Assembly (NCBI GenBank): GCA_947377285.1
Contig: CANCFT010000012.1
Coordinates: forward strand, 37,624 to 101,623
DNA from: Bacteriovoracaceae bacterium
GTDB taxonomy: Bacteria; Bdellovibrionota; Bacteriovoracia; Bacteriovoracales; Bacteriovoracaceae
DNA: 64,000 nt
Direction of reading: 5' to 3'
Within the stretch, counting starts at the first letter, position 1; each line of letters begins with the position of its first letter. Below are positions 14,009-40,301 of the stretch, in pieces. A program made the translations under genes and the position numbers. The notes under the pieces were generated by a model that did not search any database, had not been told where the DNA came from, and saw nothing but the letters and a program-made list of their open reading frames with translations.

Positions 14009-15592
14009 GTGAACGAATTTCAATTTTTACACACATCATTTGAATCTCAAGAGCTTGCCAGCTCTACGAATTTAGTCAACTTCAAACTACCGGATATTTA
14101 TCTTGTGGAAGACGACCGCGTTTTAGGAATGACAATCAAAAAATATTTGGAAAAAAAATTAGCTCTTAATGTGCATTTTTTCTTAACTCCAACAGAATGT
14201 CTCTTAGAATTAGATAAAAAAATTAAAGCTGAAACTGTAGTTAATCAAACATCTTTTTGTCTTATTACAGATATAAGTTTTGAAGTTGGTGGCTCTGATG
14301 GATTACTTCTCATTGATTTATTAAAAGAACGTGGCCATCAATTTGTTTCCATTGTGATGACAGGATTTGCCTCGATAGAAACTGCAATCAATGCTACTAA
14401 AAAAGGTGTCTTTCATTATTTAACTAAACCTTTTGAATTAGAAATTTTAAGTGAATTAGTTACAAAAGCTTTCACTAAAAAATTAAATGTCCCCGAAAGT
14501 GCATTCACTGGTCATGAGGCTTTTATTAATAAAGCTAATTTAGCTAATATTTCAAATTCAAATACTTCGCATTTATTTCAGAGTAAAATAAGAATTGAAG
14601 CTCCGGGTCCAGACGATATTTTTTGTGGAATGGTCGGAAGATCAAAGCAAATGAAACAAGTTTTTGAACGCATCAAAAAAGTAGCGGCTTCAGATTCTAC
14701 TATTTTTATTTCAGGTCCTTCTGGGACAGGTAAAGAGCTTGTTGCAAATGCACTTCATAAACTTTCAAATCGTAAATCTCACAATATGGTCTCTGTGAAT
14801 TGCGGTGCTATACCTTCTGAGCTTTTAGAAAGTGAATTATTTGGTCATGAAAAGGGTGCATTCACTGGAGCAATCTCATCGCGAAAAGGTCGATTTGAAA
14901 TGGCCCATCGTGGATCAATTTTTTTAGATGAAATTGGCGATATGCCTCTTCTTTTACAAGTGAAAATACTTCGAGTACTTCAAAATAGGGTCATTGAAAG
15001 AGTAGGGAGTACAGAAACTACAGAAATAGATGTTCGTATCGTAACGGCAACGCATAGAAATTTAGAAGAAGCTGTACAACTTGGAAATTTTCGAGAAGAT
15101 CTCTATTACCGACTTAACGTAATTCCTATCAAAATTCCTGCTCTTAAAGAACGACGTGAAGATATCCCTTTAATGATTTCTTATTTTCTTTCAAAATTTG
15201 TCAGTGCTGATCTTCGTAATAATGTTGAATTTGATGATGAATCTTTGGAGCTGTTAATTTCATATGATTGGCCAGGAAATGTCCGTGAACTTGAAAATTT
15301 AATTGAACGTTTAGTCATTTTAAAAGGTGGGAGCTTAATCAAAGTGGCCGACTTGCCAGCTAAATTTTTAAAAGCTAGCCCAGTACATGTTGATTCATAT
15401 AAGAGCCTTATAAATCTTCCAGATGCAGGCGTTGATTTAAAGCAATTGCTATCAGATATAGAGGATTCACTTATCAATCAAGCACTAGATGTAACAGGTG
15501 GAAATAAGAATCAAGCATCTAAGCTGCTTTCTATGAATAGAACGACTTTGATCGAAAAAATGAAAAAGAAAGGCTTTTTACAGTTAAACTAA
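14009..15592 (+). CDS. sigma-54-dependent response regulator (NtrC family)
   Basis: Transcription activator for RNA polymerase with sigma-54. Domains: receiver about residues 28-160 with acidic pair in YLVEDD, phospho-acceptor Asp88 (LITDIS), MTGFAS near 117 and Lys140 (YLTKPFE); AAA+ domain about 205-435 with Walker A GPSGTGKE (236-243), intact GAFTGA loop (283-288) and Walker B IFLDEIG (304-310); and a Fis-type helix-turn-helix at the C-terminus ([25 protein letters not shown]). All motifs needed for activity are present. GTG start with AAGGAC eight bases upstream. No kinase is adjacent; the flagellar operon of this window is a plausible target because many flagellar genes use sigma-54, but this is unproven. 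Confidence 0.93.
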
Positions 15593-15595
15593 CCC

Positions 15596-15610
15596 ATAGT
15601 TTTTATCTAT
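15596..15610. promoter_or_regulatory. possible OxyR-like half site upstream of ahpC
   Basis: ATAG-N7-CTAT matches one half of the OxyR recognition pattern exactly. The second half that the full OxyR consensus requires is not seen at the right spacing. It is about 100 bases before ahpC. May be chance. Confidence 0.2.
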
Positions 15611-15710
15611 CTCTTCATAAAATCAATTGATTTCTATAGATGTCTCTTTTCGGCGATACTGAATCAGTGTTGAGTATTCAACTCGATTCAAATATTTAAA
15701 AGGAGTCTCT

Positions 15711-16280: not shown

Positions 16281-16320
16281 AAACTAATAACTGAGTTTTA
16301 ATTAAGAAAGTGAGGAATGT

Positions 16321-17886: not shown

Positions 17887-17894
17887 TTTATATT

Positions 17895-18869: not shown

Positions 18870-18885
18870 GACATCATCCGCTTTT

Positions 18886-20280: not shown

Positions 20281-20290
20281 AAGTATTATT

Positions 20291-21337: not shown

Positions 21338-21339
21338 AA

Positions 21340-24377: not shown

Positions 24378-27028
24378 TTTAATTTTTTCCCTATAGAATT
24401 TGGGACGAGTACCATAATAGAGCGAGCAGGAATGAGTACATTGTCTGGTAAAATGCGAGCATTAATTAATTCTTGGTCGACTTTTGCAGTAAGGCCCGGA
24501 TGGAGTTTCCAGCCTTTATTAAAAATTGGATGATTGAATTGAACTTGATTTTTATTGACATTAAAAAGGATGAGCATTTCCTCTTTGTTGTTAATTAACT
24601 CAAAGGCAATGATTCCTGTGTTAGGTGAAATATCGTTGTCGATAAAGTTAATTGTTTGACTTACCTCTAATGAGTTTTTTGGATTAAATAAAGTTGAACT
24701 TGTTCGAATTTTTAACAACGATTTAAAGACTTCTAAGTTTGCAAGAATGTCTGTTCGTGTTGGTTTCATTAATTGTTCATTAAGTCTTGGAAACCAAAAA
24801 CTCCAATCATTGTAATTTTTAAAACTAGGAGGAAGCCCTTTACCCCAATTATTGTCTTGTAAATCAAAACTTAAATGATTGAACCAATCACCTGAGTCAT
24901 AGCTGTCAACGTCTCCAGATTTTGATCGCAAAATTTCTGAACCACCTTCTATAAATGGAATTCCTTGTGATAAAAGAGTGAAACCCAATGCTAATTGTTG
25001 CATCCTTTGTTTATCAAAACTACTCGTGAGGGTAGGTATTCTATCAGGAGTATAAAAAGGCGCTTTGGCCGATATAGCATCCCATAAACAATATCCATCA
25101 TGAGCAGAGACATAATTGATCGTTTCATCAGTTGTAGCCGCATATCCTGTTGGTACACCTCTAAAATAATAATCTTTAGCGGTGACGATATCTCCAACGA
25201 AATTTTTAAATCTAAAATCGCGAAGATTTCCCGCTAGGCCTATTTTTACAATGTCGCCCAAAATATTGAGTTTTGTTTTTTGATCATTTAAATTGGTAGA
25301 GGTATTTCTATTGGCAATTTCTTTGTTGAAATCTGTAAAAAGCCCAGTGGCAAAGCCTTGATCTGATTTTTCACTTGAGTCAGTCGTTCCACCTCGAATA
25401 GCATCGCGGAAACGGTCATTAAAAAATCCTATTCCAGCTCCGTAAGAATTTAATTGAGTGAAGGCATGCCTAGGATCTGTTTCAACAAGTGAGCCAAAGT
25501 TCCACCCTTCACCATAAAGATAAATATCAGGACCGTTTACCCCGTCTGCAGACATAGTTAATTGAGAGAGAGCGCTTTTTATTTTTAATAGATTTTCCCG
25601 TGTGTGAAAAGACATGAGGTCAAATCTAAATCCATCAACTTTATAAACTTTCGCCCAAAAAAGGATCGAGTCAATCATTAATTTTTCCATCATTTTATGT
25701 TCACTGGCCGTATCTGAACAACATGATGAATTGTAAATATTTCCAGATTCATTAAGACGGTAATAATAAAGCGGGACAATCTTATTTAAGACAGAGTAAG
25801 AGTCAGTACCACTTGAGTACGTATGGTTAAAAACGACATCGACAATAGTTTTTAATCCAATTTGATTTAATGAAAGTACTAATGTTCTTAGCTCCTTAAT
25901 TCTCGCCGAACCATTTGGGTTTTTAGAATAACTTCCATCTGGAACAAAGTAGTGGTAAGGGTCATAACCCCAATTATAACTATCATTATTTCTAATTCTA
26001 TTTAATTGAGATTGAGGCTTGTCAGAACCACTTGGGTAATTAGTCGTTAAGTCCATAGTCTGCCAAAGTGATCTATCTTCATTTACGCTGGCAAAATCAT
26101 TAAGTGGCAAAAAGTGGATATGTGTTAAACCACTGTCGGCTAAAGTTTTTAAATGCTGATAGGCCAATGATGATGGCTTAGACAATCCAATGAAAGTTCC
26201 GCGGTCATCTTCACTTAAGCCTTGGTCATCGGCAGTGAGGTCTCGAAGATGAGTTTCATAGATAATTTTATTGAGAGTCTGTTTTTTTACAAGTGAATTC
26301 CAGCCGGCAGGTTTCAAGTTATTGTCATAAACATCCACCAATTGAGATTTTTGAGAATTTATTGAAAGACTATAAGAGTAGGGATCAGTGACAAAATTAT
26401 TTTCAATTGTTTTTGAATTCGGAGAATAGACACTTATTCTGTAGAGGTAGTAATAATTTTTATAATTGATAGATAATTGATTTACCCAAGTTCCAAATTC
26501 TTCTTTGTTCAAGTTTAGAATAATTTCTGGAGTTTGATCGTCACTGTTTTTAAAAAGATAGACTTGAACCGCACTAGCTGTAGGTGACCAAATTTTTAAT
26601 GAAATAGTATTTATATGAAATTGAGCACCCAAATCATTTGAACCATAAAAAAAGCGTTGGTCTAAAATACCGGCCAACTGAACAGAGGTTTCATCAAGGA
26701 TTTCCCCATCTAGAGTAGTTGCAATTAAACTAAGTGGTCCAGAGATCAAATTAGTCAATTCTGCTTGGTTAAAAGACTTAACCTCTAACTCAACAGTTCG
26801 GTCGTGCGAATTGTTTACATAAAGCGGAACTCTTGCATGAGCAGTATCATTTTTTAAAAAATAGAGTTGAACGCCATTTACATTTAAATTATTGGGAAGC
26901 AGAAGTTTGAGTTTATTTTCTTCAAGCCATTGCGCTCTCGCTGGCGAATCTGTGAAAGCAACTCTAGCTGCACTAACTGAGAAAGAGCTAAATAGAAAAA
27001 TGAAAATAAAGAAATAATAGTTTTTCAT
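24374..27028 (-). CDS. pulA: secreted pullulanase (GH13, type I-like)
   Basis: Cleaves alpha-1,6 branches in pullulan, amylopectin or glycogen. 884 aa with a signal peptide (MKNYYFFIFIFLFSSFSVSAA). The N-terminal third contains beta domains including a CBM48-like part (FHINTISLKIWSPTASAVQVYLF). The catalytic barrel shows the pullulanase signature YNWGYDPYHYFVPDGSY, nucleophile region DGFRFDLMSFH, acid/base region YLYGEGWNFG and NYVSAHDGYCLWDAI. The C-terminus has a beta-sandwich. Overlaps malQ and the transporter fusion by four bases each. With the amylase it would produce linear maltodextrins for import. Whether it stays periplasmic or is released cannot be seen. Confidence 0.92.
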   Translation of the reverse strand: MKNYYFFIFIFLFSSFSVSAARVAFTDSPARAQWLEENKLKLLLPNNLNVNGVQLYFLKNDTAHARVPLYVNNSHDRTVELEVKSFNQAELTNLISGPLSLIATTLDGEILDETSVQLAGILDQRFFYGSNDLGAQFHINTISLKIWSPTASAVQVYLFKNSDDQTPEIILNLNKEEFGTWVNQLSINYKNYYYLYRISVYSPNSKTIENNFVTDPYSYSLSINSQKSQLVDVYDNNLKPAGWNSLVKKQTLNKIIYETHLRDLTADDQGLSEDDRGTFIGLSKPSSLAYQHLKTLADSGLTHIHFLPLNDFASVNEDRSLWQTMDLTTNYPSGSDKPQSQLNRIRNNDSYNWGYDPYHYFVPDGSYSKNPNGSARIKELRTLVLSLNQIGLKTIVDVVFNHTYSSGTDSYSVLNKIVPLYYYRLNESGNIYNSSCCSDTASEHKMMEKLMIDSILFWAKVYKVDGFRFDLMSFHTRENLLKIKSALSQLTMSADGVNGPDIYLYGEGWNFGSLVETDPRHAFTQLNSYGAGIGFFNDRFRDAIRGGTTDSSEKSDQGFATGLFTDFNKEIANRNTSTNLNDQKTKLNILGDIVKIGLAGNLRDFRFKNFVGDIVTAKDYYFRGVPTGYAATTDETINYVSAHDGYCLWDAISAKAPFYTPDRIPTLTSSFDKQRMQQLALGFTLLSQGIPFIEGGSEILRSKSGDVDSYDSGDWFNHLSFDLQDNNWGKGLPPSFKNYNDWSFWFPRLNEQLMKPTRTDILANLEVFKSLLKIRTSSTLFNPKNSLEVSQTINFIDNDISPNTGIIAFELINNKEEMLILFNVNKNQVQFNHPIFNKGWKLHPGLTAKVDQELINARILPDNVLIPARSIMVLVPNSIGKKLK

Positions 27029-28983
27029 GAATTTCTAAACTCTTTTAAAATTGAAAGTGTCTTGAGGATTTTAGGATTTTTACTGATCTCGTTAAGTTCT
27101 AAAGAAAATTTCTTTCGCCAGTTAGGGTACTCTTTCCAAGTACCAGGAATATTCTGAGGCATTTCTTCGCCCCAAAGATCTTCCAAGTTTACAACAAAAT
27201 ATTTGGCTGATGATTGAGCTATTTTTTCTATAGCTAAATTTAACATGTCACTGCCAAGTTTAGATTCCCAGTTTGCCAGTTGCGCTTTTCGCTCCTGTTG
27301 GAATTGAGTTTTGTAGTGATCAGATAAAATATTAAGTGAAGAAATAAGATCCAAGTCAGATCCCTTTTTAAATGAATTAAACATGGGCATATCATGAGTA
27401 TTAATACAAACAAGCATATTTTCTTTTATAGCTTGAAAGGCAATCTCTGGGTCTCGCCATGTTTCACATTGCATTACCCACATACCGCTCATATTTCTTT
27501 CATTAAGAATTTTATCAACGGCCAAAGGAACAGTGCCTAAGTTCTCTCCGATGAGATCGGCCCCCGCACGGTGAGCTTCTAGAATGACAACTGCAAATAA
27601 TTCTTCTGGTGCAAATCGGAGATAGGCCCCTTCATTACCTTTGAACCCTTTAGGAACACTGTATATTCTGTGAAGGCCCATGATGTGATCGAGCCTTAAA
27701 ATTTTACAAAATTTTAAATGGTGTTGAAGTGATTTTCTAAAATATTGATAGTGATCTTTTTGCATTCCAGCTGGATGAAAAGCAGGAAATCCCCAGTCTT
27801 GTCCGAGCGCAAATACCGGTTCTGGTGGTGCTCCAACTGAGACTTCACCGAAAAAAACCGAACGAAATTCTTGATAATCAAATCCAGAATCGTTCACTCC
27901 TACGGGGTAATCCATATAGAGCCCAAAATTATTATTTTTTGAAAAATTTCTAAGGGTGCAGTCCATTTCAAATTGAACAAATTTATGAAAATTTTGTTCT
28001 CTTTGTTCTTTTGATCGAAATTTAACATAAGAGCTTAGAGTGTCATTTTGTTTTTCAAATTCTAAGTAGTCAGCGTGTTGGTCATATTTTTTTGCAAAAA
28101 ATTCATCTGATAACAAAAGAAGTATTTCTTTTTTAGTTTGATAAACACCAAAATAATCTACGTGGGTTTTTAGCCGTAAAATTTCCAACCTTTTTTGAAA
28201 AGTAGCAGATGAGATAATTTCTTTGGCAGAGGAAAGATTGTATTTTTCCACGAGTTGATCAACATCGAGATAAATTTCGTTCCAAAACAATCGAGAAAGG
28301 GAAGAGTAGGGACTTGGATCGCAGTCTTGATGATCAAAATTCCCTGCCAGCATAGGAAGAAGCCCCATCCAGTTTCCACCAAATGGTCGAAGTGTTTTGG
28401 CGAGGGTCGCCGCTTCTTTGAAACTACCAATTCCCCAATCTTCAGGGCTTTTTAAAGCGTAAAGAGGCACAAATGGTCCCCAGGCTTTTTGAGTTTTGGG
28501 CTCTAGTTTTTCAGGCGGACAAATAAGAAATGAGGAACAAGTTTTTTGATCAATATTTATAATTAACTTGTGATAACCAACTGATAATTGAGTTTTTAAA
28601 TGAAAATATGATTTAAATCCTATACTGGTTTTTTTTGAATAGATAAAATTGAGAAAATCATGAAGCTTTAAACCTTCTTCCGTTACAATCTCGCAATTAA
28701 TATTTTCTTCTACGATTTTTAGAGAATTTATTTGAATAAGCTGACTCGCTCCACCCCAAAAGACATGGCATGGTTTTATTTTTTCTTCGTAAGCAAAGTT
28801 TAGTTTCTTTGAATATAATTCTGCGAGATCATTATTTGTTTGAATCTTTTGGCGAGTTAATTCTTCGAGAATTTTGACTAATGTTTTTTCTGGCGACCAA
28901 ACAATTGTCCCTTCGACATTTTTATATGAACACTGGATGCCATGTGCTCTGGCGGCTGCCCGCAATAAATTTTTTTCAAACAT
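27025..28983 (-). CDS. malQ: 4-alpha-glucanotransferase (amylomaltase, GH77)
   Basis: Cytoplasmic enzyme that transfers glucan segments between maltodextrins and releases glucose. 652 aa, like E. coli MalQ in carrying an extra N-terminal region. Catalytic motifs: nucleophile in ILRLDHIMGLHRIYSVPKG, acid/base in LIGENLGTVP, third acid in INTHDMPMF; also PSPYSSLSRLFWNEIYLD and DYPVGVNDSGFDYQEFRSVFFG. It is the first gene of the minus-strand maltodextrin operon and divergent from lamB. No maltodextrin phosphorylase is in the window, so MalQ plus the ROK kinase may be the main local route. Confidence 0.95.
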   Translation of the reverse strand: MFEKNLLRAAARAHGIQCSYKNVEGTIVWSPEKTLVKILEELTRQKIQTNNDLAELYSKKLNFAYEEKIKPCHVFWGGASQLIQINSLKIVEENINCEIVTEEGLKLHDFLNFIYSKKTSIGFKSYFHLKTQLSVGYHKLIINIDQKTCSSFLICPPEKLEPKTQKAWGPFVPLYALKSPEDWGIGSFKEAATLAKTLRPFGGNWMGLLPMLAGNFDHQDCDPSPYSSLSRLFWNEIYLDVDQLVEKYNLSSAKEIISSATFQKRLEILRLKTHVDYFGVYQTKKEILLLLSDEFFAKKYDQHADYLEFEKQNDTLSSYVKFRSKEQREQNFHKFVQFEMDCTLRNFSKNNNFGLYMDYPVGVNDSGFDYQEFRSVFFGEVSVGAPPEPVFALGQDWGFPAFHPAGMQKDHYQYFRKSLQHHLKFCKILRLDHIMGLHRIYSVPKGFKGNEGAYLRFAPEELFAVVILEAHRAGADLIGENLGTVPLAVDKILNERNMSGMWVMQCETWRDPEIAFQAIKENMLVCINTHDMPMFNSFKKGSDLDLISSLNILSDHYKTQFQQERKAQLANWESKLGSDMLNLAIEKIAQSSAKYFVVNLEDLWGEEMPQNIPGTWKEYPNWRKKFSLELNEISKNPKILKTLSILKEFRNS

Positions 28984-29012
28984 AAATTCCCTCTACAGGT
29001 CAAAAAGTGGTG

Positions 29013-29026
29013 GTTCATTTCTGAAC
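29013..29026. promoter_or_regulatory. 14-base palindrome in the malQ-lamB control region
   Basis: GTTCA-TTTC-TGAAC lies between malQ and lamB, four bases from the larger inverted repeat. It may be part of the same operator region or a promoter element. Confidence 0.35.
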
Positions 29027-29030
29027 TTTA

Positions 29031-29049
29031 TTGTAAACAGTGTCCACAA
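29031..29049. promoter_or_regulatory. candidate operator of the maltodextrin locus
   Basis: TTGTAAACAGTGTCCACAA is an inverted repeat with fourteen of eighteen arm positions symmetric (TTGTnnACA-G-TGTnnACAA). It sits in the 92-base gap between divergent malQ and lamB, where one regulator could control both. No regulator gene is nearby. Confidence 0.5.
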
Positions 29050-29075
29050 ATAGACCGCCAACATTGGACCAAGTT

Positions 29076-30311
29076 ATGAAAATAATGACTTCTCTTTTTT
29101 TATGCCTTTTATCATTAAATGCCATCGCTATGCCAGTGGATTTTCACGGTTATTTACGATCTGGAGTCGGAAATAATCTCTCAGGCCAAAAGTTGGGTTG
29201 TTTTAATAATCCAGGTAGCGAAGGTAATGAATTTAGGTTGGGAAATGAGTGCAGTATTTACGGTGAATCAACTTTCACTTTAGAATTTCTTGAGAAATCA
29301 AAGACATCTTCAAGTTTCAAAGTTCAAACAACTTTGGCTTTTTTTCCTAACGCAAATACTCAATACGGAGACGAATCTAATCAAAATGATGTTGATATTG
29401 TAGAAGCTTTTTTTGAAGCAAAAAATATAGATGGCATTCCATATACTTACTGGGCAGGTAAACGCTTTTATCGCGATGTCGATATACATATGAATGATTT
29501 TTACTATTTTGCTGCAATGAATGGAGTTGGGGCCGGAGTTAAAGACATACCCTTGTTTAATGGAAGTTTTTCTGCTGCCTATATTCAAGAAGTAATGACT
29601 TCTTCAAGCACTTCAGACCAATTGGTTAAGTCTTATTTTGATTTTAGATTATTTGGAGTAAAAGTTGATCCGATTGGAGAGCTGAATTTTTGGTCAACTC
29701 TTTCAAATGCACCTAAAGGTTCTATAGGTTCAAAAGATTCTTCGACAGGAGTTACTAGTTATAAAAATTACCAAAAAGTTGACGGAGAAGCTGTAGGGGT
29801 TAGACTTCGAAATTCTTTAACGGGTGGATTTAATGATTTTGCTGTTATATATGGACGCAATTTAATGTCTTCACTTAGTGTGTATGGAAATGGTGAAATC
29901 GCAACTAATGCAGACAATAATAAACGTTACAAAATAAGAATAGTTGAGCATTTAACAAAAAAATTAAATGATAAATTAGAGTTTCATTCGGCACTAACTT
30001 TTGAACAAAGAAATTCAGGTTTAAAAGATTCACGATGGGTCAGTATTGGAGCACGTCCAGTTTATAGTCTTAAAGAAAATCTTCACTTTGTTACAGAAGT
30101 TGGTCACTCTGAAGTTATAAACTCAGAAAAATCATTGCAATTAACTCGCTTAACGGCAGCATTAGAAATAGCAATCAATCAATCAATTTGGGCCCGTCCC
30201 GTAATTCGCTTATTTGCTACTGAAACATTTTGGAATAAAGAAAACCGAACAAACTTTCAAGGCAAAAAAGAAGGTCATTCAGTTGGTGTTCAAGGCGAAG
30301 CTTGGTTTTAA
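29076..30311 (+). CDS. lamB: LamB-like maltoporin
   Basis: Outer-membrane beta-barrel porin for maltodextrins. About 411 aa, close to LamB. After a signal peptide (MKIMTSLFLCLLSLNAIAM) the mature N-terminus is classic maltoporin: VDFHGYLRSGVGNN, then CFNNPGSEGNEFRLGNECSIYGE with the two cysteines of LamB. Later strands include YWAGKRFYRDVDIHMNDFYYF, and the chain ends with an aromatic residue (GVQGEAWF), the usual barrel assembly signal. I chose the ATG at 29076 as it starts at the signal peptide; the GTG at 29040 falls inside the candidate operator. The gene is convergent with mlaD, three bases apart. Confidence 0.93.
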   Translation: MKIMTSLFLCLLSLNAIAMPVDFHGYLRSGVGNNLSGQKLGCFNNPGSEGNEFRLGNECSIYGESTFTLEFLEKSKTSSSFKVQTTLAFFPNANTQYGDESNQNDVDIVEAFFEAKNIDGIPYTYWAGKRFYRDVDIHMNDFYYFAAMNGVGAGVKDIPLFNGSFSAAYIQEVMTSSSTSDQLVKSYFDFRLFGVKVDPIGELNFWSTLSNAPKGSIGSKDSSTGVTSYKNYQKVDGEAVGVRLRNSLTGGFNDFAVIYGRNLMSSLSVYGNGEIATNADNNKRYKIRIVEHLTKKLNDKLEFHSALTFEQRNSGLKDSRWVSIGARPVYSLKENLHFVTEVGHSEVINSEKSLQLTRLTAALEIAINQSIWARPVIRLFATETFWNKENRTNFQGKKEGHSVGVQGEAWF

Positions 30312-30314
30312 GTC

Positions 30315-31112
30315 TCACTCGCCTTTTTTAATTGATTCACGGATAAAATATTTTAACACTTTACTGCGATTTGCACCTCCGACAAGTGTTCGAAGGTCTT
30401 CATGAAGACCTTGGTCATATATAATTGCATGCAGTGATCCGGGACCTACTTCGATTTGTTTTGTAATTTTACTCATTGATTCCGATGATTGTTTAAAATT
30501 GGCCAAAGACTGAGTAATACTCTTATCTGTTAAACTACTCATTACTTTATTTGTATTCGCTGAAAGTGACTCAAGGTTCACGAGAATTTTTTCCAATCGA
30601 TTATTTTCTACTGAAGATAATATTTTATCAAATTTAGTTAAAATACTTCCAGCTACGACCATCAAGTCTTCACTCTTTGTAATTATATGTTCAAATTGAT
30701 TAGATTCATTTGTAATAAGAAAATCACCTTCATTTACGGAGCCAGAAGATTCAGTTCCACCAGTAATTTCCAAAAATTTATCACCAAGCACACCTTGAGT
30801 TTTAAAAGTCATTGTTGCATCTTTTTTTACCCAAGTTTTGTAACCGGAACTTATTCCTAATGTGATAACGAGTGTATTCACATCTTTAAAATCTATTGAA
30901 GTGACACTACCAACTTTTATACCTCGCAATTGAATGGCCGCACCATCTTTGAGGTTTTGAGCATTGCTTACTTCTGTTTTAATATAAAGGCGTCTGGAAA
31001 ATAAAGGGTTTTCTTTGTTGAGCATAAAAACAGTAATACTGACAATAATAAGTAAAACTGAAATAAATATTCCAGAGATAAGATAATTTTTTTTATCGTT
31101 TGGTTTAATCAT
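30315..31112 (-). CDS. mlaD: MCE-domain lipid-binding protein (MlaD-like)
   Basis: Periplasmic-facing subunit that binds phospholipid as part of an ABC lipid transporter. 265 aa: one N-terminal membrane anchor (LISGIFISVLLIIVSITVFML), a single MCE domain about residues 40-115 (NAQNLKDGAAIQLRGIKVGSVTSIDF), then a helical tail with many Ser and Asn that probably forms the multimer pore or reaches across the periplasm. Last of the four-gene minus-strand operon. Such transporters may carry phospholipid in either direction; direction is not evident. Confidence 0.88.
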   Translation of the reverse strand: MIKPNDKKNYLISGIFISVLLIIVSITVFMLNKENPLFSRRLYIKTEVSNAQNLKDGAAIQLRGIKVGSVTSIDFKDVNTLVITLGISSGYKTWVKKDATMTFKTQGVLGDKFLEITGGTESSGSVNEGDFLITNESNQFEHIITKSEDLMVVAGSILTKFDKILSSVENNRLEKILVNLESLSANTNKVMSSLTDKSITQSLANFKQSSESMSKITKQIEVGPGSLHAIIYDQGLHEDLRTLVGGANRSKVLKYFIRESIKKGE

Positions 31113-31115
31113 ATT

Positions 31116-31853
31116 TTATTCCTTGAAACTCGTTAAAAATTTTTGAACGATAGGATTTTCCGAGTTTTGAAATTCTTCAGGATTGCCATTAAAAGCAATG
31201 ATCCCTTGATTTAAGACGACAATCCTATCACATAAAGAAACGGCCGCTGGAATATCGTGTGTAACAAAAATGGAAGCTAGACCTTTCTTTTTAAGTTTCT
31301 GCATAAGAGAAATGACATTTAATGTGTTGGCCGGATCAAGACCAGCCGTTGGTTCATCATAAAGAATAATTTCAGGGTTTAAAATCATAGATCGCGCCAT
31401 TCCGACACGTTTTTGCATTCCACCTGATAAATCGGAAGGCATAAGTTCTTGCTTGCCTTCTAGGTCTATGAGTTTAAGCATGTCTGCTACTTTATCCTGA
31501 ATTTGTAGATAACTAAATTTTGTATGTTCAAATAGTGGGTAGGCGATATTTTCAAATACGTTGATTGAATCAAAGAGTGCACCACTTTGAAATGAATATG
31601 AGATTTTAATTCGATAAGGAGTAAGTGCATTTTCAGATAGGTTATCAATGCGTTGTCCTTTAAAAAGGATTTCACCTTGATCTACTCTTTCGAGTCCTAT
31701 GATTGATCTGAGAAGTGCTGATTTCCCACTACCCGAGCCACCGAGTAGACCTAAACTTTCACCTGGGTGTAACGTTAGGTTTACACCTTTGTGAATTTGA
31801 TTTTTATCAAAGGATTTATGAATGTTTTTTAATTCTAATATTATTTGTTCCAT
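31116..31853 (-). CDS. mlaF: MCE transporter ATPase (MlaF-like)
   Basis: Cytoplasmic ATPase of the lipid transporter. 245 aa with Walker A LLGGSGSGKSALLR, signature DLSGGMQKRVGMARSM (the GGMQKR form typical of MlaF), Walker B IILYDEPTAGLDP and H-loop IFVTHDIPAAV. Three bases separate it from mlaD and the mlaE gene stops just upstream. Confidence 0.93.
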   Translation of the reverse strand: MEQIILELKNIHKSFDKNQIHKGVNLTLHPGESLGLLGGSGSGKSALLRSIIGLERVDQGEILFKGQRIDNLSENALTPYRIKISYSFQSGALFDSINVFENIAYPLFEHTKFSYLQIQDKVADMLKLIDLEGKQELMPSDLSGGMQKRVGMARSMILNPEIILYDEPTAGLDPANTLNVISLMQKLKKKGLASIFVTHDIPAAVSLCDRIVVLNQGIIAFNGNPEEFQNSENPIVQKFLTSFKE

Positions 31854-31856
31854 TTA

Positions 31857-32648
31857 TTACCAAATAACCAAAAATATTTTACTAATAAAAAAATCTGTAA
31901 CTAGAATTAAAATTGATGCTGTTACAACTACCCAAGTGGTAGTGAGTCCAACACCTTTAGTTCCATCTTTGGTTTTAAGTCCTTTGTAACAAGCAAAAAT
32001 AGTAATAATACATGCAAAAACAACAGACTTTATTAAGCCTGACATATAATCGTAGAACTTCACTGTTGAAAATACTTTATAAAGATAAAAACCAGGTCCA
32101 ATATCGAATTCAGTTTTACAGACTATCATTCCACCTAATATTCCTACGGCAAAAGATAGTGCAGAAAGAAGTGGAAGTGAAATAACTAATGACCAAAATC
32201 TTGGAACGACTAAAACCCGAACTGGAGAAGTGCCCAAGGCCCTAATTGCATCAACTTGTTGTGTGACATTCATTGCTCCTAATTCTGCAGCAATTCCAGA
32301 ACCTACTCTGCCGGCCACTAATAATGAAGTAAAAAGTGGAGCCATTTCTCTCGCCAACGAAAGGGAAACAACAGCAGGAACATAGAGTGTTCCACCGAAT
32401 TTCACCAGACCATAGCCAAAATTAAGTGTCATGACTAAGCCCATAGTTAGTCCAATCACAACAGTAATCGAAGTTGATCCATATCCAATATGGTTAATTT
32501 GTTCCATCAATCTTGAAAAGTAAAATGGTCCAGAGACTGAACACTTAAGAGTTTCAAAAAAAAGTCCAAAGATTTCGCCTACGAAAATAAAAAATTCTCG
32601 AGATGAAGTTATGTATTGTTCTATTTTTTCTTCTATCAGTTTAATCAA
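31857..32648 (-). CDS. mlaE: MCE transporter permease (MlaE-like)
   Basis: Inner-membrane permease of the MlaE/YrbE family, 263 aa. Conserved MlaE stretch: LAREMAPLFTSLLVAGRVGSGIAAELGAMNVTQQVDAIRALGTSPVRVLVVPRFWSL. Five to six predicted helices. The start codon is TTG, overlapping the stop of the upstream lipoprotein gene by four bases, which implies translational coupling. Confidence 0.92.
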   Translation of the reverse strand: MIKLIEEKIEQYITSSREFFIFVGEIFGLFFETLKCSVSGPFYFSRLMEQINHIGYGSTSITVVIGLTMGLVMTLNFGYGLVKFGGTLYVPAVVSLSLAREMAPLFTSLLVAGRVGSGIAAELGAMNVTQQVDAIRALGTSPVRVLVVPRFWSLVISLPLLSALSFAVGILGGMIVCKTEFDIGPGFYLYKVFSTVKFYDYMSGLIKSVVFACIITIFACYKGLKTKDGTKGVGLTTTWVVVTASILILVTDFFISKIFLVIW

Positions 32649-33133
32649 TTGAGAATAATCCTCTGTAGGAATAGTTTGAGATCATTTGAATCGTTATCTA
32701 AGTTTTTTTGATTTGTAGAAATCAAAACAAAATCATAAATGCAATTGTTCTTTTGAAAAGTGACAATTCTAAAAAATCGTTGGACACCATCTAGCTTACC
32801 AGTTGCTGCTATCTCTATAGCTTCGCGTCCTTGATAGGGAACAGATTTATTTTCTAATTCCTTAAACTCTTCTAGGCCTGAAAAAAGAGAAGTTGTTAAA
32901 TTATTAAGTGAGCTTGCTTCATATTTTCTACAAGCACTGTTAAATAAAAAAAGTGACTTTGTTTTAGTGTTTTGAAGAGCATAATCAGAGCCTTCATTAT
33001 TAATTTCGCTCCATGGTTTAGGAGTATTTTTTAATAATAGATTTTCTACATTATTGCTTTTTTTATATGCACCACTCTCAGTTGAGCAGGAAATAAAGAT
33101 TGTGAATAGGGATAAAAATAATAGGTTTTTCAT
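32645..33133 (-). CDS. lipoprotein of the MCE transporter operon, unknown family
   Basis: 162 aa with a lipoprotein signal (MKNLLFLSLFTIFISCST; acylated Cys at 16). The mature part has two further cysteines and reads as a small mixed alpha/beta domain (GLEEFKELENKSVPYQGREAIEIAATGKLDGVQRFFRIVTF). It is the first gene of the operon, where classic systems would have MlaC, MlaA or a PqiC-like lipoprotein; I do not recognise it as any of these. An accessory role in lipid transport at the outer or inner membrane is inferred from position. Confidence 0.75.
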   Translation of the reverse strand: MKNLLFLSLFTIFISCSTESGAYKKSNNVENLLLKNTPKPWSEINNEGSDYALQNTKTKSLFLFNSACRKYEASSLNNLTTSLFSGLEEFKELENKSVPYQGREAIEIAATGKLDGVQRFFRIVTFQKNNCIYDFVLISTNQKNLDNDSNDLKLFLQRIILN

Positions 33134-33382
33134 ATACTCATCTAAATTAGTAAGGTTTTCACCTCTAAATTCGTTAAACGTTTATCATTATTAGAATATC
33201 GATCTAAATTGTTGTAAACAGAGTAAAATTTCCACATGTCATATTAATGACGAGAAAATATTGCCGCTCGGAAAAATATTCCTTTTAAAAAATTCAATTC
33301 CGGTTAAACTTAGTCTTGAGTCAGGGGTTTATTCAGGATGAATCAAACTCTTTTTTAACAGGCTCCCGTAAGGACAAATTTG
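33134..33382. other. 249-base divergent intergenic region before the flagellar cluster
   Basis: Lies between the MCE lipoprotein gene and the TPR gene that heads the flagellar cluster, so it should hold two promoters. It includes a perfect ten-base palindrome TAAACGTTTA (33175-33184), about 40 bases from the lipoprotein start, resembling LacI-type operators. I found no good sigma-54 or sigma-28 promoter match. Confidence 0.4.
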
Positions 33383-36259
33383 ATGCGAACAGGATGTTTC
33401 GTGAAAATGTGCCCAGTAAAAAAAATCTTCAATTTTTTGACGATTTTATTTATTTCACTTTTTATTCTGGAAAATATTTCCTATGCACAATCTCTTATAG
33501 ATCAAGAGAAAGCGTCTACTTATCTTCGTTGGAATTTTTTCACTGGACGGGATCAATTACAGTTTAATAAAAAAGGAAATGTCGTTGTCATTAGAACGCT
33601 CAATTCTGATTTATATAAAAAAATTAAGAATGAACTAGAAACATTTAAGCTTGATCAGACTTATGTAAAAGGAATTCACTTTAAGGATTCAGATAATGAG
33701 TCTAATTCAGTCAATGCCATGGCCGTTGAAATTGAATTAAAAAATGATAGTGTTGAAATGTTTAGCTTTTACCGGGAAAGAGAGAAAAAGTATGTTGTCG
33801 ATTTTTGGATGGATGGCGATACGGTTTCATTTAGTAAATCAGCTATAAAAAAAGATTCTAATGTGGCCAATGAGGAAGCCGAGAGTACTCAGGAAGCGGA
33901 AGTTTCAACTCAAGAAAAAGCAGTTTCTCCTAAAATTGTTAAACAAGTAAAAACGCCTAAAATCGTTAAGAATAAAACTAAGTCTAAAAATGCTGCTTTG
34001 GCCGTTGGCAGTGATGAAATTGTAGAAAAAGTTAAAGAAGATAAAATTTTATCAAGTTTTATCGTTGATCCAAATAAAGAAGTCATTAAGACTGCTGAGG
34101 AAATTCAAGCGATAGATGCGGAAGCTAAAAAGCCATATAGAGATTTTCGTTATGGTGCGACTTTTATTTGGGATTATGATCCAATTGCTCCTGCCTATAA
34201 AGAAGTTGTTAATTTAAAAACTAAAATTCCTGAAATTTTTTATCCAATTGCCAATCGTTCTTTCAAGAAAAGTGAAACAGAAGCTCATTTGCAGTTAACG
34301 ATTAATCTTTATAGAAAAAGAAAATGGGGCTTAATGTATAAGTCTATAAAACTTTTTCAGCAAAAGTATGGAATGAATAAAGAATGGGAGCTGATAGAAT
34401 TTATAAAGGCGAATGCTATTTTAAGAGAGAATATAGATACACCGAACCCTGAACTTTTTAAAAATGCATTTGCAATGTTGTCTAATCTTTCAGAAAAAAG
34501 TGATAACTATGAACTTAAAAAAGCTATTTATAAATATCTTCTTACTTTTTACATGAGCAAAGGTGAACACTTAAAAACACTTCAATTAGCAAAAAACTAT
34601 TACGCAGGGACTCGCGATAATTTTGACTTTGAAGAATCTATTATTCCTGCTGAGGCCATGCTCAATTCTTTAGCAAAATTAGGACAAATTGAAAAAATAA
34701 AAGAGTTGTCTCAAGAGAAGTCGATCAAAAAAATACTTCCCTCTCAATTGATCATGGCGTATCAAACATTTAGTTATCTTCGCTCTGGGGATCTTCTAGG
34801 ATTAATTAGTCTTTATGAAAAAAATAAAGCTTCCCTGGCCAAGCCTATTGATCCAGTTATTATGTACAATACAGCAGAAGCTTATTTTAGAGTTGGCCGA
34901 TTCGCAGAAGCAATGGCCATGTTTGAAGAATTTGTAAAAAATTATTCTCATGAGTTTGTAGCTTCAAATGCGAATTTAAGGATTGCGCTTTGTTCCGATA
35001 TCCTAGATCACAATTATGCTGACACATTAGAGCTTTATAAAAAAGCAATTGATCAATCAATTGATAGCAATGTAAGTTACGAAGCTCGAGTCCGTTATGT
35101 TGCTTTTAGAAGTGTACGGAAAATTGCTTTAGATGATAGGGATCATGAAATTAGAATTTTTCTTGAACAAGATAAGAATCTAAAAACACAACCTGACAAA
35201 AATTTAGTGAAACTACTTCAGCAAGTACGACTTAGAACTTTAATCGTCGATGAAAAATATAAAGAAGCCCTTGCCTATTTAAGTCTTATTCCAATGGTTT
35301 CAATGTCTAAAATTGATGCAAGAGAATTTGATGGAGACGGTGCTGAAATTATCTATGGAATTATTTCTGATTTTTATAAAAAATCTGAGTACTCACAAGT
35401 CATAAAAACATGGCAAACTTATAAAGACAAATATCTTGATAAAGTCGCACTTGATCCATTTATCAATTTTGTTGTTGGAAGCAGCTATATAAAGCTTGGA
35501 TTGTATAAAGGATTTGATGAGGTGTATGCCAGCTTTGAAAAGTTAAAAGATACTCCCAATAAAACATTTCCTATTTGGGTAACAAGAGGAAATTTTCTTA
35601 AAGCAAGTGACCTGCTTTTTGAATTAGTATTAATAAAAGACATTAAATTAAAGAATTGGGATTTGGTTCAAAAAAATATAGCCGATTTTGATAAACGACT
35701 ACCGACTTATAATAAAACCAACTATTACAAGGGCATGGTTGCTTTTAATCAAAAAAATTATGTTGATGCCGTTAAGCAGTTTGAAAATTTCTTCTCAAAG
35801 CAAGACCAACGAATTATTTATGATCCCTCAGATGTGGCAGATATGATTCGGGCCTATACTGACTCCATCTATGAACAAGGGCAAACTGATAAATTCTTGA
35901 AAGTTAGTGAAGCCATCTTAAATGACACCAATAGCTTCGGCACAAATAATGCTTATATACAGAATGTTCGTGAAAGAATTGCCTATCTTGGCATTGAAAT
36001 AACGGCAGGAAAAGGGAAGAAGGAAAACTTCATGCTTTTTGAAAAGAAGATCACCGATTTTAAAAAAGCAAACCTAAAATCTATTTACACTGGTAGGGTT
36101 AACTATCTATTGGGGCAGGCGTTGGTTAATAATCAAAAAATTAAAGAAGGGCGAGAAATTTTTACAAGTTTGATGAACGATAAAGAAACATCAGACTATA
36201 TAAAAGAGTTAGCAAAAAGTGAATTAAGTTTATTGAATTTGAAAGAAAAAACAATATAA
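33383..36259 (+). CDS. exported TPR-repeat protein at the head of the flagellar operon
   Basis: About 958 aa, probably periplasmic and possibly part of the motor or of its assembly. A signal peptide follows a short lead (KKIFNFLTILFISLFILENISYAQ). The ATG at 33383 has AAGGA upstream; 33407 is an alternative that starts closer to the signal. Residues about 30-140 look like a small beta domain resembling AMIN-type domains (YLRWNFFTGRDQLQFNKKGNVVVI). Residues 145-200 are a Lys/Glu/Ala-rich linker. From about 270 the chain is all-helical with TPR-like units (IMYNTAEAYFRVGRFAEAMAMFEEFVKNY; NYYKGMVAFNQKNYVDAVKQFENFF). The stop abuts the next gene. No enzyme motif seen. Confidence 0.78.
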   Translation: MRTGCFVKMCPVKKIFNFLTILFISLFILENISYAQSLIDQEKASTYLRWNFFTGRDQLQFNKKGNVVVIRTLNSDLYKKIKNELETFKLDQTYVKGIHFKDSDNESNSVNAMAVEIELKNDSVEMFSFYREREKKYVVDFWMDGDTVSFSKSAIKKDSNVANEEAESTQEAEVSTQEKAVSPKIVKQVKTPKIVKNKTKSKNAALAVGSDEIVEKVKEDKILSSFIVDPNKEVIKTAEEIQAIDAEAKKPYRDFRYGATFIWDYDPIAPAYKEVVNLKTKIPEIFYPIANRSFKKSETEAHLQLTINLYRKRKWGLMYKSIKLFQQKYGMNKEWELIEFIKANAILRENIDTPNPELFKNAFAMLSNLSEKSDNYELKKAIYKYLLTFYMSKGEHLKTLQLAKNYYAGTRDNFDFEESIIPAEAMLNSLAKLGQIEKIKELSQEKSIKKILPSQLIMAYQTFSYLRSGDLLGLISLYEKNKASLAKPIDPVIMYNTAEAYFRVGRFAEAMAMFEEFVKNYSHEFVASNANLRIALCSDILDHNYADTLELYKKAIDQSIDSNVSYEARVRYVAFRSVRKIALDDRDHEIRIFLEQDKNLKTQPDKNLVKLLQQVRLRTLIVDEKYKEALAYLSLIPMVSMSKIDAREFDGDGAEIIYGIISDFYKKSEYSQVIKTWQTYKDKYLDKVALDPFINFVVGSSYIKLGLYKGFDEVYASFEKLKDTPNKTFPIWVTRGNFLKASDLLFELVLIKDIKLKNWDLVQKNIADFDKRLPTYNKTNYYKGMVAFNQKNYVDAVKQFENFFSKQDQRIIYDPSDVADMIRAYTDSIYEQGQTDKFLKVSEAILNDTNSFGTNNAYIQNVRERIAYLGIEITAGKGKKENFMLFEKKITDFKKANLKSIYTGRVNYLLGQALVNNQKIKEGREIFTSLMNDKETSDYIKELAKSELSLLNLKEKTI

Positions 36260-36286
36260 ATGAGTCTCAGGACGGAGGCGATTCGT

Positions 36287-37237
36287 ATGACAGGAGGTCA
36301 GATGGAAGCGATTATAGTAGAACTTTTTGGAACTGATGTAAGAGTTGAGAAAGCTCTACAACAAGCGAGAAACTTGTCTGTAAGTAAAGCCTCAGTATTA
36401 GTAGTTGGGGAAAATGGAGTAGGTAAGCGAACTCTTGGTCGCTACATTCATGAAAATTCTGGTCGATCTATTCACCCATTTGAACTTGTTGACTGCTCAT
36501 TGCCTGCGCAAGATGTAGAAAACAAAATTCTTGGTCATAGAGACAATGTTACAGGAAGATTCAATAAAGGCATCCTAGAAGTTGCCAACAAGGGTACTGT
36601 CGTCTTCGCTAATATCGATTGCTTAGAAGAAGAATTCCAAAAACGATTAACAAAAATAATCAATGAACTTGAAGATTATGAAATTGATGTTCGCTTAATC
36701 GCAACAACAACTAAAAATCTTTCAAAGCTTGTTGGTGCAGGAAGATTCTATCGTGGATTGTTTACAATCTTTGCTAACAACTCAGTTAGTATTCCGGCCT
36801 TAAGAGAAAGACAAGAAGATCTTCAAAGACTTGCTCGTCACTTTATGAATGAAGCAACTGATACAAATGAAATATCTACTGAAATCGATTCAGTTGCTAT
36901 GAGTAGAATCACGTCTCATTATTGGGCAAATAATATTCATGAACTTAAGCAAGTTATCTCGAGCTCAGTGAATAATAATTCATCTCTATTAGACGAAAGT
37001 GCCTTTGAAGTGAATGATAAAAAATCAGTAAACTTTATGAGTGATGATGACTCTGAAGGTGTAAGATTAATGTCTCTTAAAGATGCAGAAAAACTTCTCA
37101 TTAAAAAAGCATTAATTCATACAACTGAAAATAGAACTCAAGCAGCAAAAATCCTTGGCGTATCAATTAGAACATTGAGAAATAAAATCAATGAATATAG
37201 AAACGACGGATCATCTTATTTTGTAAATTTAAGATAG
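36287..37237 (+). CDS. FlbD/FlrC-like regulator with degenerate sigma-54-activator domain
   Basis: About 316 aa, no receiver domain, an AAA+ domain (about residues 10-225) and a Fis-type helix-turn-helix (ENRTQAAKILGVSIRTLRNKINEYR, about 281-305) like that of flagellar regulators FlbD/FlrC. Walker A is present (GENGVGKRT), but the GAFTGA loop that contacts sigma-54 is replaced by HRDNVTGRF and the Walker B acidic pair (FLDEIG in relatives) reads FANID, so ATP hydrolysis and sigma-54 remodelling are unlikely. I infer a DNA-binding modulator or repressor of flagellar genes. Of three in-frame ATGs I prefer 36287, with GGAGG eight bases upstream; 36260 and 36302 are alternatives. It lies directly before flgB. 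Confidence 0.82.
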   Translation: MTGGQMEAIIVELFGTDVRVEKALQQARNLSVSKASVLVVGENGVGKRTLGRYIHENSGRSIHPFELVDCSLPAQDVENKILGHRDNVTGRFNKGILEVANKGTVVFANIDCLEEEFQKRLTKIINELEDYEIDVRLIATTTKNLSKLVGAGRFYRGLFTIFANNSVSIPALRERQEDLQRLARHFMNEATDTNEISTEIDSVAMSRITSHYWANNIHELKQVISSSVNNNSSLLDESAFEVNDKKSVNFMSDDDSEGVRLMSLKDAEKLLIKKALIHTTENRTQAAKILGVSIRTLRNKINEYRNDGSSYFVNLR

Positions 37238-37264: not shown

Positions 37265-37672
37265 ATGAATATTGATGATAAAACAACTCAGGCCTTAGCT
37301 GCTTCATTGAAGTACCGACAAATGCGCCAGGAATTGATCGCATCTAATATAGCCAATGCAGAAACTCCAGGTTACAAAGCAAAAAAAATTGATTTTGAAG
37401 ATGCTTTGGCCCGTGCTTTAGATACTGATGAACAACAAACTTTAAAAACCACTGACTCCAAACATTTCAATGTTGGAGGCGGTGGTTTTAATAATTTGAA
37501 TCCGGAAATTTATGAAGAGTCTAACGGAATCGTTAGCCCTGATGGCAATACGGTTGACCGTGATGCTGAAATGGCCGATATGGCCGAGAATAAAATTATG
37601 TACGATGCTTCAGTTCAATTGCTGAATAAAAAATTGGGTTTGATGAAATATGTCGTTGGTTCTGACCGCTAG
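37265..37672 (+). CDS. flgB: flagellar proximal rod protein FlgB
   Basis: Structural protein of the proximal rod, exported by the flagellar type III system. 135 aa. The N-terminal rod motif ASLKYRQMRQELIASNIANAETPGYKAKKIDFEDAL is characteristic, and the C-terminal helix (LLNKKLGLMKYVVGSDR) pairs with it in the rod. AGAGGAGA ribosome-binding site. First of the flgB-flgC-fliE trio. Confidence 0.95.
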   Translation: MNIDDKTTQALAASLKYRQMRQELIASNIANAETPGYKAKKIDFEDALARALDTDEQQTLKTTDSKHFNVGGGGFNNLNPEIYEESNGIVSPDGNTVDRDAEMADMAENKIMYDASVQLLNKKLGLMKYVVGSDR

Positions 37673-38570: not shown

Positions 38571-38593
38571 TGATTTCATAGGATGTGAAATTA
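38571..38593 (+). promoter_or_regulatory. hairpin just before the fliF ribosome-binding site
   Basis: TGATTTCA pairs with TGAAATTA (one G-U) around a seven-base loop, ending eight bases before AGGAGG. Another repeat, CAATTG-N9-CAATTG (38535-38555), precedes it in the same 85-base gap. May tune fliF translation or message stability. Confidence 0.3.
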
Positions 38594-38612
38594 AGAGTTC
38601 AGGAGGAAGGCC

Positions 38613-40301
38613 TTGCAAGATATATTAGAGAAAATTTTTAGAAACTTTAAAGAGTTCTTTAGTGGTCTCGATTCAACGAAGAAATTGGGCTTCATCATCG
38701 TCTCTTGCATGATAATTGCTGCTATGGCCGGAATAGTTGTTTGGGCATCTAAAACTCGTTATGACACACTTTATACTGATCTCAACAAAGATGATGCACG
38801 CAAGATAGCGATTCTTCTCGAAGAAAAAAAGATTCCATACCAAGCTTCAAATGATGGAAAAACAATTTCAATTCCCGAAGACTTAGTTGGTGTTTGGAGA
38901 TTAGAAATTGCAAAACTAGGAACAAGTTTTTCTGGAACAGTTGGGTATGAAGTTTTTGATAAACAATCTTTTGGAACAACAAGTTTTGTACAAAAAGTAA
39001 ATAAGCAAAGGGCACTCGAAGGGGAGATGGTTAAAACCATTATGTACATCCAAGGTGTCAAACGTGCAAGAGTGCATATTTCTATTCCTGAATCATCTCC
39101 ATTTGTAGCAGAGAAAAAAGCTCCATCCGCTTCTGTTGTCCTTGAGCTCAATAATGGTGTTTCGTTAACTCCTGCCGAAATTAAAGGGATTGGTTCTCTT
39201 GTTGCTTCTTCAGTTGAAGAGATGAGACCTGAGAATGTTGTTATTTTAGATGACCGAGGAAAAAAACTTTCTGAAAATATTGGCGATGCAATGACTGCAA
39301 CTACGGCCAATAGATTAGCTCTTGAAGCTCAATTAAATCAAAAATATGAAAAGCAAATTGAAGACATTTTAACGAAAGTTGTTGGTGACGGAAAAGTTGT
39401 CGCTAAAGTGACGGTAGATTTAGATTTTACAGAGTCAGTTGCCACTGAAACGAAATATGACAACGAAAACTCCGCTGTCGTGTCTGAAGTTAAAAATGTT
39501 CAAAATGTTAATGGTTCAAGACCTTCTCCACAAGGAGTTGCAGGTGCTCAGTCAAACCTACCTGGCGAAGTTCCTCAACCGGGTGTAGCTGAAACGAAAA
39601 ATAACGTCACTAAAGAACTTACGACTAGAAATTTAAATGTTCCGACAACTGTAACCCAATCAAGAAAGCCATCGGCCAATGTAAAGGCCATTTCAGCAGC
39701 AGTTATGATTGATGGAAAAAGGATAGCCGTCGTAGGTGAAGATGGAGTTCCTCAGTTAGATAAAAATGGCAATGCCATAATGAAATATGAAAAATGGAGT
39801 GAAGCTGACTTGCAGAATTTTGCACAAATTGTTGCTTCAACTCTTGGAACTTCAGACAAGCGCGGTGATAAACTTGTTATAAAAAATATGGAATTTGCAC
39901 GTGAAGACATGAGTGTTGCAGATGCTATGCTTAAAGAGCAAGCTAATAGAGAGTTAATTAAAAATATCGTCAAATACCTGGCCGTTGGGTTAACGATTTC
40001 ATTATTCTTCTTCTTGGTTGTTCGACCATTTATCCAATGGGTGACAGACAATACAATCGAAACAGTGGAAGACTTTTTACCTAGAACATTAGAAGAATTA
40101 GAAAAAGTTCAGGCGAATCAGCGCTTACCTGGATTAGAAGATGCTCTTCCACAAATTGAAGAGAAATTAAATCCAGAAAAAATTGAAGGAAATATGTTGC
40201 GGGAAAAAATTATTGCATTGGTTGAAAATAACCCAGGCAAGGCCGCACAAATTATTCATGAAATGATTCATGCGAGTGAATCAGATAAACAAATTGCCTA
40301 A
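38613..40301 (+). CDS. fliF: flagellar MS-ring protein FliF
   Basis: Forms the inner-membrane MS ring that the motor and export gate are built on. 562 aa, usual length. Helix 1 about residues 26-46 (LGFIIVSCMIIAAMAGIVVWA), periplasmic ring-building motifs (YTDLNKDDARKIAILLEEKKIPY; RARVHISIPESSPFVAEKKAPSASVVLEL), helix 2 about 449-468 (YLAVGLTISLFFFLVVRPF), and a cytoplasmic tail that binds FliG. The start is TTG with AGGAGG six bases upstream (38601-38606); no ATG competes. Confidence 0.96.
   Translation: MQDILEKIFRNFKEFFSGLDSTKKLGFIIVSCMIIAAMAGIVVWASKTRYDTLYTDLNKDDARKIAILLEEKKIPYQASNDGKTISIPEDLVGVWRLEIAKLGTSFSGTVGYEVFDKQSFGTTSFVQKVNKQRALEGEMVKTIMYIQGVKRARVHISIPESSPFVAEKKAPSASVVLELNNGVSLTPAEIKGIGSLVASSVEEMRPENVVILDDRGKKLSENIGDAMTATTANRLALEAQLNQKYEKQIEDILTKVVGDGKVVAKVTVDLDFTESVATETKYDNENSAVVSEVKNVQNVNGSRPSPQGVAGAQSNLPGEVPQPGVAETKNNVTKELTTRNLNVPTTVTQSRKPSANVKAISAAVMIDGKRIAVVGEDGVPQLDKNGNAIMKYEKWSEADLQNFAQIVASTLGTSDKRGDKLVIKNMEFAREDMSVADAMLKEQANRELIKNIVKYLAVGLTISLFFFLVVRPFIQWVTDNTIETVEDFLPRTLEELEKVQANQRLPGLEDALPQIEEKLNPEKIEGNMLREKIIALVENNPGKAAQIIHEMIHASESDKQIA

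Follow-up and report, generated by a model that had tools for sequence, protein, structure and literature searches.

The operon that leads from a gene for a TPR protein into flgB in a Bacteriovoracaceae bacterium contains, directly upstream of flgB, an open reading frame, REG, for a protein built like a sigma-54 activator that lacks several of the residues expected of one. This raises the question of what such a protein may do in a flagellar operon. The window analyzed comprises 64,000 nucleotides of assembly GCA_947377285.1 (contig CANCFT010000012.1, positions 37,624 to 101,623, forward strand), and all coordinates are window positions (Table 1). The family of the window is termed f1; f3, f6, f8, and so on are further families of the same phylum. 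Members of the Bacteriovorax-like family f1 are mostly predatory. A first survey covered the genomes of the family, and a second collection comprised 80 loci from organisms partly overlapping with those of the first survey; the genome collection consisted in part of MAGs. No paper on the REG gene in Bdellovibrio or Bacteriovorax was found in the open-licence literature. The best explanation as a whole, with a probability of about 50%, is that a sigma-54 activator was turned into a sigma-70-type autoregulator that works without ATP hydrolysis and is gated by CsrA and FliW.

Table 1. Positions of the features in the window and the evidence used to assign them
Feature	Position	Strand	Evidence
Intact response-regulator EBP (RR14009), conserved syntenic partner	14009..15592	+	Pfam, NCBIfam, alignment, synteny
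Operator site 1 (AGAAAATATTGCC), 17 bp upstream of site 2	33253..33265		CC at end in 49/60 family loci
Operator site 2 (GGAAAAATATTCC), centre near −41, proposed REG site	33270..33282		Palindrome enrichment
Sigma-70-like −10 box TAAACT of the TPR-REG-flg operon	33305..33310	+	Fixed spacing to site 2
TPR leader hairpin A (AUUC-AGGAU-GAAU), GGA in loop	33331..33343	+	Weak R1 match 33327-33382, E 0.61
TPR protein gene, first of the operon; real start probably 33402 or 33407	33380..36259	+	ORF, Pfam, synteny
TPR leader hairpin B (GAAC-AGGAU-GUUU), covering the probable ribosome site	33387..33399	+	Leader comparison, 60 loci
REG open reading frame	36260..37237	+	Open reading frame
REG leader hairpin A (GUCUC-AGGACG-GAGGC)	36264..36279	+	R1 match 36261-36306, E 5.6e-5
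REG leader hairpin B (GAC-AGGAG-GUC), Shine-Dalgarno in loop	36289..36299	+	11-mer in 80/80 loci
REG, degenerate enhancer-binding protein, 311 aa	36302..37237	+	ORF, Pfam, alignment, predicted fold
Walker A GENGVGKR, kept	36407..36430	+	Alignment with RR14009, relatives
L1 loop, shortened, without GAFTGA (GHRDNVTGRFNKG)	36533..36571	+	Alignment, relatives
Walker B, altered to VVFANID	36599..36619	+	Alignment, relatives
Arginine-finger region RFYRGLFTIFA, second R lost	36743..36775	+	Alignment, relatives
Sensor II region NNIHEL, R lost	36929..36946	+	Alignment, relatives
Fis-type HTH domain, with hardly any variation in the family	37067..37201	+	dN/dS, relatives
flgB, 27 bp downstream of REG	37265..37672	+	ORF, neighbourhood comparison
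fliF leader twin hairpins (UUUCAU-AGGAU-GUGAAA; UUC-AGGAG-GAA) before TTG start 38613	38572..38616	+	R1 match, E 2.1e-5

The REG protein most probably starts at position 36302 and not at 36287, the start assumed in a preliminary description of this DNA, because few relatives outside the genus have the ATG at 36287, while nearly all of the 80 relatives keep the 11-mer GACAGGAGGTC followed by an ATG after two bases. The protein contains the Pfam domains Sigma54_activat (78.3 bits), AAA_lid_14, and HTH_8, and Pfam detected no receiver domain. Losses of motifs were read from an alignment with the intact response regulator encoded at 14009 (RR14009). Compared to this protein, FLDEIG of Walker B is changed to FANID (D to A, E to N), loop L1 reads RDNVTGRFN, being six residues shorter and devoid of GAFTGA, and loop L2 is shorter by eight residues. 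The second arginine of DLYYRL is lost, with one finger arginine kept, and the arginine of NVREL in sensor II is missing. Alignment and Pfam confirmed what the preliminary description had read from the letters, a kept Walker A, the change to FANID, the loss of GAFTGA, and the absence of a receiver. An AAA+ core was still predicted in the AlphaFold model (mean pLDDT of 83.8), whose best PDB matches were ZraR and NtrC1, with VpsR (7v2b) also among the fold matches. The missing residues imply that ATP hydrolysis would be lost. The Walker A lysine is invariant in the relatives, which is suggestive of ATP binding without hydrolysis. From the set of features of a functional sigma-54 enhancer-binding protein (EBP), REG has retained the NtrC-type AAA+ domain but not GAFTGA, the DE pair of Walker B, the second finger arginine, or the sensor II arginine, and no adjacent sigma-54 promoter was found; it combines a lost GAFTGA with a kept HTH domain, as EBPs of the GAFTGA-less sigma-70 type do.

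Clear REG orthologues (52 to 100% identity, 34 distinct genomes) were present in all family genomes of the first survey but one; in this survey, G012 (87% complete) yielded a weak match only. The DE pair or GAFTGA occurred in none of the 80 orthologues of the second collection, and Walker A in all of them. The dN/dS of the HTH core was 0.018 within the genus and 0.011 across a family sample. That of the AAA core was 0.059 within the genus, so that the AAA part is constrained too. Conservation of the motif losses, the invariant HTH domain, and the low dN/dS argue that REG is under constraint and presumably a working protein. The missing catalytic motifs may alternatively mark a decaying pseudogene or a sequencing artefact, but a frame open in nearly all genomes, a dN/dS far below 1, and the invariant HTH domain refute this explanation and leave it with next to no probability. 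The check proposed in the preliminary description, an alignment of homologues, thus gave family-wide losses of Walker B and GAFTGA next to strong purifying selection on the HTH domain, in agreement with its view of REG as a protein without the features of a sigma-54 activator but still a regulator of the DNA-binding type that is associated with flagellar genes.

VpsR, TyrR, DhaR, HupR, and the NtrC proteins of Rhodobacter capsulatus and Caulobacter are EBPs without GAFTGA that act at sigma-70 promoters, and the R. capsulatus type of NtrC binds ATP without hydrolysis. REG shares with this group the NtrC-type AAA+ domain, the Fis-type HTH domain, and the loss of the sigma-54 contact loop. It differs from this group by the absence of a receiver, the additional loss of Walker B, of a finger-region arginine and of sensor II, its location in a flagellar operon, and a lineage in which the loss occurred at least twice. 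The existence of GAFTGA-less EBPs at sigma-70 promoters has been documented (PMC10274813, PMC3162934). The flagellar position and the intact flgB-adjacent homologues in sister families link REG to FlbD (NF050807), FleQ, FlrC, and FlgR, from which REG differs by the absence of a receiver, GAFTGA, and Walker B. NF050807 was the best NCBIfam match of REG, but the score of 155 bits is far below the cut-off of 750 bits, and REG was rejected as a FlbD equivalog.

The place that REG holds before flgB is taken by an EBP in other families of the phylum too. It is intact, directly upstream of flgB, and similar to REG in its HTH domain in f3, f8, f9, f11, f14, f15, f18, f19, f21, and f22, and it is degenerate in f1, f6, f12, and partly in f23 and one member of f8. 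In the tree, f12 nests with the intact f8, f15, and f19. A single origin of all degenerate copies was rejected for a clade of f1 and f12 (p = 0.0125), while a clade of f1 and f6 was not. Nesting and rejection together argue that the flgB-adjacent EBP has degenerated at least twice independently. Intact homologues in the same gene order, which the preliminary description would have taken as a sign of recent decay, do exist, but only in other families, which makes the loss in f1 ancient and not a recent event. A sigma-54 promoter is located between the intact EBP and flgB in all seven f3 loci. Several of these loci (L157 to L163) contain beside it in the same gap a reverse sigma-28-like box, TTATCGGC-N11-AAACTTTA, which points antisense into the EBP gene. 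In f6, the flgB-adjacent regulator comprises 257 aa in one locus (L164, G039) and is eroded to 155 aa, mostly HTH, in another (L168, G126); two f6 genomes had no recognisable copy.

The promoter of the operon may indicate which DNA site is used by REG. Palindrome counting first found GGAA-N5-TTCC in the gaps between EBP and flgB of f3, in six of the seven (shuffled maximum, four). In f1, the promoter segment that precedes the TPR gene contains GGAAN5TTCC at 0.44 per kb versus 0.019 per kb elsewhere in the family loci, a 23-fold enrichment with p = 2e-13 if the kinship of the loci is ignored; control palindromes gave 0 to 1 matches. The operator has the form of a tandem GGAAA-N3-TTTCC pair, 17 bp apart with centres near −58 and −41, and the distance between the end of site 2 and a TANNAT-like −10 box is exactly 22 bp in 56 of the 60 f1 loci. 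A search upstream of TPR for a sigma-54 site of the f1 operon found none, and no −35 hexamer was recognisable at the TPR operon promoter. Promoters that need an activator usually have no recognisable −35 hexamer, and a centre near −41 is the usual position of a class II activator. Since the palindrome and the HTH domain are common to f1 and f3, we infer that REG binds the tandem operator. An operator near −41 of a sigma-70-like promoter would fit an activator at least as well as a repressor or an anti-activator, and the “anti-activator” or “ATP-sensing repressor” of the preliminary description found no particular support.

Other candidate sites were discarded. The region upstream of RR14009 has the site in only 4 of 42 loci and was dropped as a second operator target, an apparent sigma-54 promoter before fliO falls inside the fliN coding sequence, and TTGAC-N5-GTCAA at the REG start showed no genome-wide excess and fewer matches than its reversed control. 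Its reading as a DNA operator was also ruled out by the recurrence of this hairpin type at fliF with other stems. A second perfect GGAAAATATTTCC at 33469 to 33481, inside the TPR coding start, is common to several members of the genus and may reflect coding constraint.

A second layer of control may reside in the mRNA leaders. The 11-mer precedes the REG start in all 80 loci, and conservation of the last 20 bases before this start is 23.2 bits, compared to 4.5 to 11.3 bits for the other genes of the operon. An upstream hairpin with an AGGAN loop occurs in many loci, with 43 of 58 GGA-bearing loci beating their own shuffles at p < 0.05, and about a third of the loci are without a GGA upstream hairpin. 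Twin GGA hairpins are present in the TPR leader in 42 of 60 loci, and the fliF leader, with the same two hairpins as the REG leader, emerged from the control genes of the REG hairpin test. When the leaders of REG and fliF were aligned together, in rows that were chosen for having stems and not for covarying between the two mRNAs, 94.8% of the cells were paired versus 58.4% after shuffling, and 147 double changes compared to 49 in the shuffled alignments (0 of 500) and 11 to 39 in slid controls. The GGA stays in the loop while the stems change. A covariance model of the leaders, R1, was built without the genus of the window; its top two window matches were the fliF and REG leaders, with E-values that are rough. 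When genomes were scanned with R1, with 150 candidates scored per genome, further matches in nine genomes were located at the starts of fliD (three genomes), fliM, flagellin, and rod-binding protein genes, and also at genes for a MinD-like ATPase, a secretin-type protein, and DivIC-like proteins, the weaker ones maybe by chance. Those at DivIC-like gene starts (L297, G000:C17; L291, G018) may indicate a link between the RNA element and division. No Rfam match reached the gathering threshold. A possible GGA hairpin (GGTCATAGGATTGACC) is also located upstream of the RR14009 gene at 13954 to 13969.

A gene for CsrA was found in 33 of 35 family genomes, in G000 at G000:C3:23634; no csrA was seen in G013 (84% complete) or G026 (66% complete), and G029 had a fragment only. 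All 17 genomes tested contained fliW, which adjoins csrA in G000. The REG leader has a GGA hairpin loop over the Shine-Dalgarno sequence plus a second site. The full SELEX consensus RUACARGGAUGU was not matched at REG, where GACAGGAGGUC contains ACA, GGA, and GU without the R, and the loop over the Shine-Dalgarno sequence has five bases, one short of the SELEX hexaloop. Natural CsrA sites often deviate from the SELEX consensus. Hexaloops of the form GCC-ANGGAG-GGC over the Shine-Dalgarno sequence are found in f8 and f12, and a six-base loop leader (GAC-AAGGAG-GTC) in the flagella-less G062. As in the glgC leader of Escherichia coli, GGA is located in hairpin loops, at two sites about 20 nt apart with one over the Shine-Dalgarno sequence, and csrA and fliW are present. 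In contrast to glgC-type CsrA/RsmA leaders, the loops are mostly AGGAN pentaloops, the 11-mer at REG is fixed, several motility mRNAs of one family are concerned, and CsrA binding is a prediction. Twin GGA loops, the f8 and f12 hexaloops, the presence of csrA and fliW, and the consensus and glgC precedent (reviewed in PMC7652899) make CsrA the best candidate for the binder of the leader hairpins. Titles and abstracts in the open-licence literature gave no work on CsrA regulation in Bacteriovorax-like bacteria.

Several other explanations need to be considered for the operator. REG may act there as a passive or ATP-sensing repressor that keeps the operon off until it is removed, which would need no ATPase and agrees with the kept Walker A; site 2 covers the −35 position, and repression from an operator at −41 is likewise possible. 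The missing −35 hexamer and the centre near −41, both usual for activation, speak for an activator instead, and a repressor is somewhat unlikely. It is unlikely that RR14009 or an unrelated regulator binds the operator before TPR and REG acts elsewhere: the response regulator is adjacent, and the target of the REG HTH domain is deduced solely from palindrome sharing across families, but the f3 sites adjoin an intact EBP of the REG type together with its sigma-54 promoter for flgB, and sites upstream of RR14009 itself are rare. The motifs of RR14009 are intact, as previously noted, and this was substantiated by Pfam and alignment; it is also a conserved neighbour, with an orthologue, about 55 to 85% identical, immediately before the TPR gene in many family loci. 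In the window, about 17.8 kb (15593 to 33379) separate both genes, which are adjacent in many other family members. From this neighbourhood, and from the joint retention of REG and the orthologue in a flagella-less genome (L216), REG might be regarded as an inactive partner or anti-activator of RR14009 that acts through mixed rings or competition and not as an independent regulator. The HTH domains of the two proteins differ, however, the second finger-region arginine of REG is lost, and a sigma-54 site was not found at the operon, so this is improbable.

The leader hairpins may likewise couple translation to that of the neighbouring gene, or set ribosome access themselves, and not be CsrA sites at all. 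A Shine-Dalgarno sequence inside a hairpin, the nearby upstream stop codon, and the five-base loop at REG agree with this, but twin GGA loops are also found before TPR, which seems to be first in the operon and to have nothing to couple to, the GGA is kept in the loop as the stems vary, and ANGGAN hexaloops form in f8 and f12. Hairpins unrelated to CsrA are quite unlikely.

The preferred mechanism, autoregulation by REG under control of CsrA and FliW, would start from the sigma-54 activator that precedes flgB throughout the phylum. In the f1 ancestor, REG would have lost ATP hydrolysis and the contact to sigma-54 and become a DNA-binding regulator of a sigma-70-type promoter, bound to the tandem GGAAA-N3-TTTCC operator before the TPR-REG-flgB operon and acting most likely as a class-II-like positive autoregulator, with the sign deduced from promoter anatomy. 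Translation of REG, TPR, and fliF would be gated by predicted binding of CsrA to the twin GGA-loop hairpins, and FliW would relieve this gating. The interpretation in the preliminary description stands in part and contained neither the RNA hairpins nor the operator. A broader statement is more tentative, with somewhat less than even chances: two or more lineages of a single phylum may, independently of each other, have turned a flagellar sigma-54 master activator into a regulator dead for ATP hydrolysis, the f1 copy of which would have kept the ancestral operator while its promoter changed from sigma-54 to sigma-70, and would have been wired into a CsrA-FliW motility RNA regulon with twin AGGAN pentaloop hairpins (TPR, REG, fliF, fliD, fliM, and flagellin). 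A change of sigma-factor dependence would thus have been caught with both states at the same locus and, seemingly, the same operator, so that the survival of a regulator after loss of catalysis becomes testable. The leaders indicate an RNA regulon of the CsrA type that comprises motility genes of Bacteriovorax-like bacteria, and operator and leaders suggest a rebuilt circuit for switching swimming on and off in this family.

REG may have a role beyond swimming, as hinted by its retention next to a FliF-like gene in flagella-less members. Neither flgB nor flhA was found in three genomes of genus g51, all of which retain REG, and the R1 leader was also found in g51 genomes. In L216, REG is located beside a gene with weak resemblance to FliF (25.9 bits in Pfam) and beside the orthologue of the response regulator. 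Among L216 and L219 to L222 (G066, G131, G174, and G062), flhA was not found, three were also without flgB, and REG is kept; a FliF-like gene lies beside REG in L216 and L222. The genome of G060, 99% complete and without a detected flhA, contains flgB-flgC-fliE.
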